64,000 nucleotides of DNA from Nitrospina sp. (GTDB lineage: Bacteria > Nitrospinota > Nitrospinia > Nitrospinales > JACRGP01). The DNA lies in contig JACAVV010000029.1 of NCBI GenBank assembly GCA_024648695.1, forward strand, positions 1-64,000. Direction: 5' to 3'. Positions within the stretch are counted from its first letter, which is position 1. Each line of letters opens with the position of its first letter. Position numbers and translations under genes: made by a program. The notes beneath the pieces were generated by a model, which was not told the DNA's origin, ran no database searches, and saw nothing but the letters and a program-made list of their open reading frames with translations. Below are positions 1 through 9,080 of this stretch, piece after piece.

Positions 1-1013
1 AAAAAGCTGGCGATGCCAAAGCTGGGGAAGCGAAAGAAGGTGAAGCTAAAGCCGGAGATGAAAAAGCTGGCGATGCCAAAGCTGGGGAAGCGAAAGAAGG
101 TGAAGCTAAAGCCGGAGATGAAAAAGCTGGCGATGCCAAAGCTGGGGAAGCGAAAGAAGGTGAAGCTAAAGCCGGAGATGAAAAAGCAGGCGACGCTAAA
201 GCTGGAGAAGCTAAAGCCGGAGATGAAAAAGCAGGCGACGCTAAAGCTGGAGAAGCTAAAGCCGGAGACGAAAAAGCAGGCGACGCTAAAGCTGGAGAAG
301 GGAAAGAAGGTGAAGCTAAAGCCGGAGATGAAAAAGCAGGCGACGCTAAAGCTGGAAAAGCAAAAGAAGGTGAAACCAAGGCCGGAGACGAAAAAACTGG
401 CGATGCCAAAGCTGGGGAAGCGAAAGAGGGAGAGTTTAAAATTCCTGATGTCAAGGGCGAAGACATAAAATCACCAGAAGCCAAAGCCGATGATTTTAAA
501 ATTCCAGAAGTCAAAACCGGCGACATCAAAACTCCGGAAACCAAGGCTGGAGAATTAAAGGTACCTGACGTCAAAACTGATGAGGTCAAAATCCCTGAGG
601 CCAAGGGAGACGAGATAAAAATTCCGGAAGTAAAGGAAGGAGAATTAAAAGCGCCGGAGGCACCGGTTGAAGATGTGAAAATTCCAGAGGTTAAAGGTGA
701 GGACGTCAAGACGCCCGAGGTTTCAGAAGATACGGCAGAAACCGGTGGAGAAGCCTCTACAACAGGCGAAAATGAAGAGACTCCGCCAGAAGATAAAGGA
801 TTTCTGGAAAGCCTCCAGGATAAGGCAGATTCTAAAGTTGAAGGTGCGCAGGATTCTGTCGACTCGGTTACGGACCAAGGCGACTCCCTAACCGATTCAG
901 TCGAGGAACCGGAAGTGCCGGATGAAGACAGCCTTCTCGATCGGCTACGCAAAAAAGGCAGGGAAAAAGCCGACGGCACCACTGACGATGTCCTGGGAGA
1001 ACCAGAAAACTAA
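1..1013 (+). CDS. Charged tandem-repeat protein, C-terminal part (5' end outside window)
   Basis: An open frame runs from base 3 (first full codon) to a TAA at 1011-1013, giving 336 visible residues with no start in the window. The first 145 residues are 29 pentads of the form K-[A/E]-G-[D/E]-[A/E]. Ten decads follow, of the form K-x-P-[E/D]-x-K-x-[G/E/D]-[E/D]-x. A lysine therefore opens nearly every fifth residue for about 245 residues. The last ~90 residues are an acidic, non-repetitive tail ending DVLGEPEN. No membrane segment is visible. The composition (Lys, Glu, Asp, Gly, Ala, Pro) suggests an extended or disordered chain, like LEA-type or other charged repeat proteins. Function is unknown. 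The frame choice is supported by the periodic motif continuing without stops into the non-repetitive tail, while the other two frames break. Confidence 0.8.
   Translation, partial: KAGDAKAGEAKEGEAKAGDEKAGDAKAGEAKEGEAKAGDEKAGDAKAGEAKEGEAKAGDEKAGDAKAGEAKAGDEKAGDAKAGEAKAGDEKAGDAKAGEGKEGEAKAGDEKAGDAKAGKAKEGETKAGDEKTGDAKAGEAKEGEFKIPDVKGEDIKSPEAKADDFKIPEVKTGDIKTPETKAGELKVPDVKTDEVKIPEAKGDEIKIPEVKEGELKAPEAPVEDVKIPEVKGEDVKTPEVSEDTAETGGEASTTGENEETPPEDKGFLESLQDKADSKVEGAQDSVDSVTDQGDSLTDSVEEPEVPDEDSLLDRLRKKGREKADGTTDDVLGEPEN
3..437 (+). repeat. Tandem 15-bp repeats in 60-bp and 45-bp higher-order units
   Basis: Bases 1-60, 61-120 and 121-180 are identical copies of a 60-bp unit. They are followed by 45-bp and 60-bp variants (starting at 181, 226, 271, 331 and 391). 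The underlying period is 15 bp, five codons. Identity is highest at the left edge, so recent expansion or contraction by slippage or unequal recombination is likely. Confidence 0.95.
438..737 (+). repeat. Ten degenerate 30-bp (10-residue) repeats
   Basis: Units begin every 30 bases from 438 to 708. Each encodes K-[I/T/S/V/A]-P-[E/D]-[V/A/T]-K-x-x-[D/E]-x. The last unit (KTPEVSEDTA) is degenerate. They stay in phase with the preceding pentads and have diverged far more at the DNA level, so this block is older. Confidence 0.9.
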
Positions 1014-5735: not shown

Positions 5736-8700
5736 TCAATCATCCACCCGTTTCAGGTGGCTGGCAATCTTTGCGAGGTCGGAGGAAATGCTGTAGTTGT
5801 AGGTTCCCAATCCCGACTCATTATTCTCCTTCGCCAGATAAGAAACACCAATCAACCAACCACCACCTTTCCCACCACGGTCGGTGACGAAGCCACCGTA
5901 GTCCTGCAATGCTTTCGCGATCACCAATCCATCGCGGGACAGTCCCAGGGAATTCAAATCAACCGAGGGAGAAAGGGCCAGCCGCGAACCCATGGGAACC
6001 GACCCGGAATAGCCGGGTTCGGCGTCAAAAGCTAGGGCAGGACTGCGTAATTGCTCGCGCAGGAGTTCCGGCGGAAGAATAATGCTGAGCGCGTGTGGAA
6101 TCAAGCCCGCCACCATTTCCTTATCGGTGATGAGCCCGGCATAATTTGGAATGAGACTCGCTCGCCTGCCATTCAATGCTCCTGTGCCGTCGCCTGAAGG
6201 ATCGGTAAAACTGTACATCAGGGCCACCAGTTCTCCGCTGGACAAACGAATTCCGGCATTCACCTCCAGAACGAGACCATCGGGTTGATGTATGGCTAAA
6301 TGACCGTCACCATCCTCTCCCGGTACAGCGTTGGCAGGAACATAAGCTTTCGCGGGTCCGGGACTGGGCTGGACCAACTCATTAAACGTCGACAAACTGG
6401 GCCAAGCACCAGGCTCAAACCATTCCTTGTTTCCATCCACTACTGAATAAATATTCGTATAAAAGTGGCCACCAAATTCTTCACGAAACAGAGACTCCGC
6501 ACAAACAAGAATATCCTGCTCCCTCCAGGATGGGTTATCTGAACGTTTCCATTCCCCTGTTCCTCCGGGTCCTCGGCTAAAAGCATCAACGCAGTAATAA
6601 ATATTTTCCTGAGGATCGCTGATTCTGGCGGAATACTCATTAATCTGTTGGTATTTGGAATTCCAGGAAGTCAAACTCCCCGTGAGACTGGATAATCCGG
6701 AAATATAACGATAGTTTTTTCCTGAAGGAACTTTGGTATTCCACAGGGAGTTCCGGGTGAATCTGGAATCGGTCAAGCTGTTATTGTGGAGAAAATCAAT
6801 TCCTGAAAACTCGGTATCCATATGCTGATTGTGGCTTACCGTCCGCCGTTGGCTGATCTCCACACCTGGAGAGGTGTAAGCTGTATCGGGATTTTTGAAT
6901 GAATACAAAAACAGCTCTCCCGACGGGTCCCAATACCAGTCGCCTTCCTCGTTTAAATCAGCAAGTTTGAACCGTTCACGACCTGGCTTTCCATCATAAT
7001 ACAACCAGGTCGGATACTTGGGTACGGACACACTCCACACATTGGGGTCCCGAACGCTATCCTGATGAAACACTTGAACATCATCTATTTGTACTTTAAA
7101 ACTGGTGGCGTCATATCCATCAAACCCAACCACCAGTTCCTTAATGATATCCATCTCATGAGTGCCCCAGGATTTCAGGTTTCCATCGACTTTAAAGGTC
7201 CAGGAAGGAAACCCGCGCGTATCACATTCCACTTCGATTTCATAGATCTTTCCGGTTTCGATGGCCTGATCCTGGCTTGCATTTTTCAGGGATGTGTTCA
7301 TTCCCAGTTGATAACTTTTGCCATCGTAAGACAACCAAAGCACCGCGTAATCGGGATGCGATTTGCATAAATCCCATCTTACCTTATGCCCTGCCCTGGC
7401 GGTCGAGGTTGGATCAACACGAAATTTGAAACGATGTTTAACAAACGAAAATTCCTTGCCAATTTTATAAAGATGCTCTTCTCGCGAATTCAATTCGTAG
7501 GAATTGGTTCCGGAAACCTTGCTCCCTCCCACAATAAATCCCGATCCATATCGCCAAAACGGATTCAGGTTTCCATTTTCAAATGAATCCGTAACGAGGG
7601 GGTCTCCCAGGGCGTCATGGGTGTATACTTTCAAGTCGTCTATCTGGACTTTAAACAAATTCGCATCATAGCCGTCAAAGCCCACCAACAGCTCTTCAAT
7701 CGACTCCATTTGATGGGTTCCATGCGCATAACGCAATCCATCGACAGAGAAGGTCCAGGAAGGGACGGCACGGGTGTCGCATTCAACCTGAATGTCATAC
7801 ACCCTTCCCGTTTCTATGGGAAATATCTGGCTGGGATCCTGTATTGAAGTGTTCATACCCAATTGATACCCTTCTCCGTCATGTGTCAACCACATGACCA
7901 CGTAATTGGGATGGTTTTTGCACAAATCCCATCTCACTTTATGCCCACTGGAAGCTGTGGTTCCGGAATCCAGCCGAAATTTAAAGTCGTGGCGAACGTA
8001 ATCATAGTTTTGCCCCTCTCGAGACAGTTTTTCTTCCGTCCGGTCAATTTCATACGCATAACTTCCCGACAATGACCGGTTATAAACCCGGGACCCCGTA
8101 CTTGATTCCCAGAAAGGGTCGTTTCCACTGCTTTCAAAATCATTACTATGAACCGGCTCGCCTTTAGGATCTTCGGTAAAAATTTGCACATCGTCCACAT
8201 CGATTTGAAAGCGGTCCGGATTGTAACCTTCGGAGCCCAAAATCACTTCCCGAATTTCCTCAATTTGATGGGTGCCGGAATCTTGCTTGACCCCATTCAG
8301 TGAAAACTTCCAGGAAGGCATTCCCCGGGTATCGCATTCCACTTCAATATTGTACACCGTGTCAAAATCAATCGGAACGGATTCATCGGCAAACGAGGTA
8401 GACGTGTTCACTCCGAGGCGAAGTCCGTCATCTTCATGAGAAAGCCAAAGGACCACATAATCAGGGTGGGATTTACACAAATCCCACCTGACTTTTTTCC
8501 CCAATCCAGCGATTGAGGATGAATCGACTTTAATGCTGAAACGTTGTTTTATGTATTGGTAGGATAAATCCCTTAAGGATAATTGATCGTATTTGGAATT
8601 TATTCGGTAGGCGTTTTGTCCATTCACCAGGTTTCCACCTACAAGCGACCCTAAAGCTTCGGACCAGGCGGAATGCGGAGACCCACTTTCAAAAGAATCG

Positions 8701-9080
8701 GCTAATAAAGGTTCCAAACTAACCTGGGACCAACCTTTAAAAATGTCCGACCCTTTTATCACCGGGTTGGGTCCCGTAGCATATGCAGAAAAGCTTAACC
8801 CATCCCTGGGTATCTTCAACTCCTCCCGCCAAACGCCTCCCCGTTTTAATTTGATCTGCGCTCCCGAACCAAAAGAAGCACTGGATACTCGGGAAAGGGT
8901 TTTCCAGGCTTGAGAGGAAGACAACCCTGATTTAGAATCATCACCATTCACAGGATCTATATAGTAAGGTCCATGCGAGGCAAAAGCATATCCTTCCTGA
9001 CCACCGGCTGGGACCAAATAAGGTTGAACAAATGCAATGACAGCAAGACAACTTATCAGGATGGAATCTCTTAATTTCAT
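5736..9080 (-). CDS. Large secreted protein with three 185-residue repeats
   Basis: A 1114-residue protein with a signal peptide (residues 1-25). Residues 38-125 start YYIDPVNGDDSKSG and resemble the first turns of a right-handed beta-helix (DUF1565-like). Three homologous repeats begin near residues 129, 314 and 499. The landmark KVRWDLCK recurs at 196, 381 and 566, an exact 185-residue spacing. Each repeat contains WDLCK[S/N]HP, WL[S/T], LG[M/V]NTS and a VECDTR motif, so each carries two conserved cysteines that could form a disulfide. The repeats look like concanavalin-type beta-sandwich (LamG-like) modules, which is inference. Residues about 685-1114 are another beta-rich region of unknown family. 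Start: ATG with AGGAGA nine bases upstream. It is monocistronic. Probable surface binding or glycan-active protein, function unknown. Confidence 0.8.
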   Translation of the reverse strand: MKLRDSILISCLAVIAFVQPYLVPAGGQEGYAFASHGPYYIDPVNGDDSKSGLSSSQAWKTLSRVSSASFGSGAQIKLKRGGVWREELKIPRDGLSFSAYATGPNPVIKGSDIFKGWSQVSLEPLLADSFESGSPHSAWSEALGSLVGGNLVNGQNAYRINSKYDQLSLRDLSYQYIKQRFSIKVDSSSIAGLGKKVRWDLCKSHPDYVVLWLSHEDDGLRLGVNTSTSFADESVPIDFDTVYNIEVECDTRGMPSWKFSLNGVKQDSGTHQIEEIREVILGSEGYNPDRFQIDVDDVQIFTEDPKGEPVHSNDFESSGNDPFWESSTGSRVYNRSLSGSYAYEIDRTEEKLSREGQNYDYVRHDFKFRLDSGTTASSGHKVRWDLCKNHPNYVVMWLTHDGEGYQLGMNTSIQDPSQIFPIETGRVYDIQVECDTRAVPSWTFSVDGLRYAHGTHQMESIEELLVGFDGYDANLFKVQIDDLKVYTHDALGDPLVTDSFENGNLNPFWRYGSGFIVGGSKVSGTNSYELNSREEHLYKIGKEFSFVKHRFKFRVDPTSTARAGHKVRWDLCKSHPDYAVLWLSYDGKSYQLGMNTSLKNASQDQAIETGKIYEIEVECDTRGFPSWTFKVDGNLKSWGTHEMDIIKELVVGFDGYDATSFKVQIDDVQVFHQDSVRDPNVWSVSVPKYPTWLYYDGKPGRERFKLADLNEEGDWYWDPSGELFLYSFKNPDTAYTSPGVEISQRRTVSHNQHMDTEFSGIDFLHNNSLTDSRFTRNSLWNTKVPSGKNYRYISGLSSLTGSLTSWNSKYQQINEYSARISDPQENIYYCVDAFSRGPGGTGEWKRSDNPSWREQDILVCAESLFREEFGGHFYTNIYSVVDGNKEWFEPGAWPSLSTFNELVQPSPGPAKAYVPANAVPGEDGDGHLAIHQPDGLVLEVNAGIRLSSGELVALMYSFTDPSGDGTGALNGRRASLIPNYAGLITDKEMVAGLIPHALSIILPPELLREQLRSPALAFDAEPGYSGSVPMGSRLALSPSVDLNSLGLSRDGLVIAKALQDYGGFVTDRGGKGGGWLIGVSYLAKENNESGLGTYNYSISSDLAKIASHLKRVDD

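Follow-up and report, generated by a model that had tools for sequence, protein, structure and literature searches.

The first 1,013 nucleotides of the window, the whole 64,000-nucleotide stretch of Nitrospina sp. DNA that was analysed, very probably encode the C-terminal end (3..1013) of one giant protein that consists of a heptad coiled coil, more than 50 five-residue repeats (pentads), ten ten-residue repeats (decads) and an acidic tail. The gene for the giant closes a cluster of three, and what appeared as an odd repeat at the edge of a contig can now be described as a defined gene family, a three-gene cluster present in two genera.

The repeat array

An open reading frame of 336 codons followed by a TAA stop occupies positions 3..1013 of the window on the plus strand. 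It begins with 29 pentads of the form K-x-G-[DE]-x (3..437, +), whose 5′ side is cut by the contig end, and continues in register with ten PEVK-like decads of the form K-x-P-[DE]-x-K-x-x-[DE]-x (438..737, +), an acidic C-terminal tail of 91 residues with two short predicted helices (738..1010, +), and the stop codon (1011..1013, +). The succession of 29 pentads and ten decads described in the earlier note was thus recovered, with the refinement that one member of the lysine-led set (KAGKA) departs from a pentad pattern to which nearly all others conform, and that the eighth (KAPEAPVEDV) and tenth (KTPEVSEDTA) decads are imperfect. Lysine recurs at every fifth residue, unbroken across 44 units, and 46 lysine pairs are separated by five residues, compared to a mean of 8.4 and a maximum of 18 in 2,000 shuffles of the same composition. 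At the DNA level the array is built on a 15-bp unit and a 60-bp higher-order unit encoding KAGDE-KAGDA-KAGEA-KEGEA. The repeat is real and coding, extended and charged, and collagen, 11-mer and heptad periods do not fit it, as had been proposed; a collagen-like repeat would need glycine at every third residue, and the pentads have glycine once per five.

Several other matches to this region were set aside. The antisense open frame at 2..982 (-), of 327 codons, is not a gene; it arises from the 15-bp period, which leaves the reverse frame free of stops. A match of the pentads to phrog_14105 (E 1.5e-11) was read as compositional because a tblastn search of phage sequences found nothing. Matches to PDB entries (ribosomal protein L6, calponin) are weak and compositional, and those of a decad query in genomes G007 and G046 are weak and of low complexity, the G046 match lying at the end of a protein encoded between flagellar genes. 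Among viral contigs, none carried the pentad protein, and none matched an alignment of the 164-residue product of the neighbouring gene. A search of relatives for the giant's C-terminal tail gave no homologue.

The pentads contain 30 basic and 41 acidic residues in 145, a fraction of charged residues of about 0.5 with a slight net negative charge, and the array falls on the disordered side of a charge-hydropathy plot. An AlphaFold model of the window fragment, made from a single sequence and therefore indicative, gives pentads and decads without secondary structure (pLDDT mostly 41-50) and places the two tail helices at fragment residues 265-298 and 308-323, with a block pLDDT of about 58-80. 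On these predictions the array is best seen as a flexible, near-neutral polyampholyte rather than as a filament or a polycation. Neither of the physical roles proposed in the earlier note is supported: a binder of polyanions or polycations does not fit a slightly acidic polyampholyte, and a filament formed by the pentads does not fit a modelled coil of such low pLDDT. The elongated part of the giant is a heptad coiled coil of ~735 residues that lies outside the window.

Descent of the pentads and decads

Mean nucleotide identity among the pentads is 73%, falling to 42% at their third codon positions, while half-decads are 51% identical among themselves and 51% identical to pentads. It had been proposed that the whole array grew from one 15-bp unit. 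For the pentads this stands; for the decads it is left without support at the DNA level, with half-decads resembling pentads exactly as much as they resemble each other. The decads do keep the register, and the lysine and [DE] positions, of doubled pentads. Because both half-decad identities are 51%, the DNA neither proves nor orders a descent between pentads and decads; the pentads are read as the more recently homogenised part of the array, and the decads as older or less constrained.

Very probably one gene divided between two contigs

Base 1 of the window is base 1 of its contig (C18, of which the window is positions 1-64000), and hence the array is cut by the assembly. A search of the same genome found the repeat in one other place, the last ~370 bases of contig C51, where 24 further full pentads are encoded at the end of an 871-residue frame that begins with an ATG at position 5936 and is cut by the contig end while still within the array (C51:5936-8550, at locus L003, outside the window). 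The earlier note had named closure of the upstream frame by stops as a refutation; that frame is open as far back as its ATG start on C51.

The two contig ends share a signature. At the start of C18 a 127-bp exact repeat (1-127 = 61-187) recurs 60 bases on, and at the end of C51 the terminal 127 bases have a second copy 180 bases before them; no 128-base word recurs at either end. A limit of 127 bp at both ends would be the pattern left by a de Bruijn assembler with k = 127. The ends have a 91-bp identical stretch in common and do not overlap, which implies further array copies between C51 and C18. The most economical reading is that C51 and C18 carry a single gene, and this is very probably correct. 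That they instead carry two different genes sharing a repeat, so that the protein with the window array would have a different N-terminus, is consistent with contig ends that lack a direct sequence overlap, but is highly improbable given that the assembly has no third contig with the array, that frames and orientation suit one gene, and that each end breaks off at a repeat of exactly 127 bp, which is what a single array left unresolved would give. Read as a single gene, the giant has no fewer than 1,207 visible residues; to its 24 + 29 full pentads come the uncounted copies in the gap. Short-read assembly can hide proteins of this kind, such that annotation misses the full repeat length or even the whole gene.

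Architecture of the giant protein

Residues 1 to ~735 of the giant form an Ala/Lys/Glu-rich heptad coiled coil that contains no cysteine, with a strong autocorrelation at lag 7 (z = 19.3) and none at lag 11 (z = -0.8). Inspection of the N-terminus (MGFSSFTSKLNDIKSRIQ) by eye gave no evident signal peptide. Two alanine-zipper models score above their cut-offs, with the best stretch at residues 7-76 (PF11839, 37.1 bits against 23.1; NF040598, 45.8 against 43), and this match is probably driven by composition. No LEA, dehydrin or TolA model of Pfam or NCBIfam matches the giant, and no catalytic or toxin domain was found in its visible part with Pfam, NCBIfam or PHROGs. Membership of the TolA family was rejected on the lack of a model match, and membership of the LEA family on the same grounds together with the lag-11 value in the coil and the array period of five.

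The three-gene cluster and its distribution

The first gene of the cluster (C51:4124-5263) encodes a protein of 379 residues with about three transthyretin-like (TTR) repeats. The second (C51:5442-5936) encodes a coiled coil of 164 residues whose N-terminal part bears the motif CETN-x-VH-x-FRV, and the third, last of the cluster, is the giant (C51:5936-8550 and window 3..1013). The same three genes occur in the same order in the Nitrospinaceae MAG OFTM44 (G001), with 47% identity for gene 2 and 41% for gene 3. In both genomes the stop codon of gene 2 overlaps the ATG of the giant gene (TGATG), and a PanE-type gene lies upstream of the cluster. The OFTM44 contig stops where the array should begin, and no array is visible before that end.

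The distribution of the cluster is narrow. Full-length gene 2 is present in two of 77 Nitrospinota genomes, this one and OFTM44, which belongs to another genus; partial coil matches elsewhere in the phylum were taken as compositional. Two short peptide patterns, searched against 84,980 species genomes, returned OFTM44 alone, with the limit that distant relatives could escape such patterns. No plasmid was found with the N-terminus of the 164-residue protein. The gene after the giant encodes an SGNH hydrolase and is convergent; SGNH synteny was tried as a route to the C-terminus of the OFTM44 giant and abandoned, as the homologue there adjoins a serpin-like gene instead.

Some observations on neighbouring proteins are recorded here in their own right. 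The TTR protein of OFTM44 (L021:11119-11976, contig C66) carries ~5-6 copies of a Pro/Glu/Val-rich 12-residue repeat, EPPPM[RQ]AEVET[NK], ahead of its TTR domains, a further linker made of repeats within the cluster. On C51, an 816-residue protein (L003:168-2618, -) has a PDZ domain followed by many DD-x-Y...SQG-x-G-x-x-G-x-G-x-L-x-D-x-x-GND repeats, and its PDZ part alone lies above the Pfam cut-off. Within the window, positions 5736-9080 (-) encode a secreted-looking protein of 1,114 residues with three internal repeats of ~160-200 residues (WDLC[KN]-x-HP[DN]Y-x-V-x-WL).

A possible connection to type VI secretion

An apparently complete type VI secretion system (T6SS) cluster is present on contig C19 of the same genome; Hcp, TssB and VgrG were confirmed by Pfam models, and TssA, C, E, F, G, L, M and ClpV were assigned by eye, from their sequences and the arrangement of the ORFs. 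In published work, effectors are linked to the T6SS spike through TTR domains of VgrG and through DUF4123 proteins (PMC7043769). Over 55 residues, the TTR repeat of gene 1 shares 51% identity with the C-terminal part of a Thiodictyon protein annotated as VgrG (E 1e-9), and a weak fold match places the Tle1-VgrG structure 6sjl at rank 10 (E 0.029). In genome G007, a relative of the N-terminal half of gene 1 (AE-x-G-x-PFCE-x-CEKA) adjoins a DUF4123 gene (Pfam 1.8e-34). Judged by these sequence matches, gene 1 is probably spike-linked, and the order of the genes points to the giant as its partner or cargo.

Three of the 77 genomes encode the TTR protein, all within the nine that have TssB, a co-occurrence with a probability near 0.001 if genomes were independent. 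Two of the three come from one family, and because the TTR-bearing genomes are related the co-occurrence is not independent evidence. Neither vgrG, DUF4123 nor PAAR genes were seen beside gene 1 in this genome or on the OFTM44 contig, and in this assembly no T6SS core or VgrG gene lies beside the cluster. A direct join of the T6SS contig C19 to C51 was considered and rejected, since their ends do not overlap. No immunity gene follows the giant; because neither a toxin domain nor an immunity gene was found, the sequence does not support a classical effector. A literature search found no work joining Nitrospinota and type VI secretion, and the link raised here for this phylum is testable.

Other genes in these surroundings were also noted. 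Two large proteins of 1,189 and 2,511 residues (L021:5845-9414; L022:9879-17414, -), both without Pfam matches, are encoded in or beside TTR/DUF4123 neighbourhoods and are possible T6SS cargo. Look-alike proteins of 117-131 residues that belong to no Pfam family (L021:10693-11088; L023:12246-12599, -; L024:7547-7924) are encoded in or next to these large cargo-like genes.

Proposed role and alternatives

The reading favoured, tentatively and at somewhat less than even odds, is that the giant has a T6SS-linked role as an accessory or cargo component in which the array is a spacer. The TTR protein would dock on the spike, as the TTR domains of VgrG do for effectors, and the two coiled-coil proteins encoded by genes 2 and 3 may pair with each other. 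The polyampholyte array would then act as a spacer, soluble and extensible, with the number of repeat copies setting its length, and the giant could be delivered by the T6SS. A more specific version, unlikely as it stands, holds that the giant is a structural, non-toxic T6SS cargo or tether, that is, an exported or carried rod that a stand-alone TTR adaptor holds to the spike and whose extensible polyampholyte tail is tuned in length by the number of repeats. The rod would be ~100 nm long (735 residues at a rise of 0.15 nm) if it formed one continuous helix.

The strongest alternative, itself doubtful, is that the giant is a cytoplasmic structural or scaffold protein with no part in secretion, the coil assembling a filament from which the array projects as a brush in the manner of neurofilament side arms. 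The long heptad coiled coil, the disordered polyampholyte tail, the lack of an evident signal peptide, and two overlapping coiled-coil genes whose products may co-assemble would all suit such a protein. Against a purely structural role stands gene 1, whose TTR repeats and motifs elsewhere belong to VgrG and adjoin DUF4123, and which occurs in no genome that lacks a T6SS among the 77.

It is also unlikely that the array is a neutral expansion, driven by polymerase or recombination, of a tolerated linker in a protein of which only coil and tail are functional. The exact 60- and 127-bp repeats are the mark of recent expansion, and the relative shows no array before its contig ends, but frame, lysine register and acid position are held over 44 units despite diverged DNA. 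Because the register is kept where the DNA has diverged (73% identity; 42% at third positions), selection for the amino-acid pattern is suggested. Least well placed among the proposed functions is that of a hydrophilin or LEA-like protectant, in which the array would retain water and stop aggregation under stress with no specific partner; this is quite improbable, for while the array is very hydrophilic, rich in charge, supplied with glycine in nearly every pentad and predicted to be disordered, the LEA, dehydrin and TolA models of Pfam and NCBIfam are without a match and the array is fused to a ~735-residue coil within a conserved cluster that includes a TTR-repeat protein.

Comparison with known systems

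The tentatively favoured T6SS-linked reading draws on the VgrG TTR/DUF4123 adaptors, which the cluster resembles in that the TTR-like repeats of gene 1 match the C-terminal part of VgrG and its N-terminal motif family adjoins a DUF4123 gene in G007. It differs from the TTR domains of VgrG in having about three repeats on a separate protein without spike domains, followed by a giant without a recognisable toxin domain.

For the giant itself, Ala-rich helical repeats are shared with alanine-zipper lipoproteins (PF11839/NF040598) and TolA-type helices. Unlike the Lpp/OprI alanine-zipper lipoproteins, its N-terminus (MGFSSFTSKLNDIKSR...) has neither an evident signal peptide nor a lipobox cysteine, and it exceeds 1,200 residues. 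Neurofilament proteins, like the giant, join a coiled-coil rod to a tail of Lys/Glu repeats; the giant lacks an intermediate-filament domain and a KSP motif array, however, and the likeness is convergent at best. No Pfam match to a neurofilament rod or to titin Ig domains was found in the giant. The decads (KIPEVKEGELKAPEAPVEDVKIPEVKGEDV) are rich in Pro, Glu, Val and Lys and predicted to be disordered, as is the PEVK region of titin, whose repeats are discussed in PMC6469411 and works it references both as entropic chains and as a polyampholyte spring driven by charge. The two are of unrelated origin, the array being bacterial and following a strict period of five or ten residues rather than PEVK motifs, and the analogy is one of composition only. 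A coiled-coil rod joined to a polyampholyte tail is a known kind of protein and not a new class.
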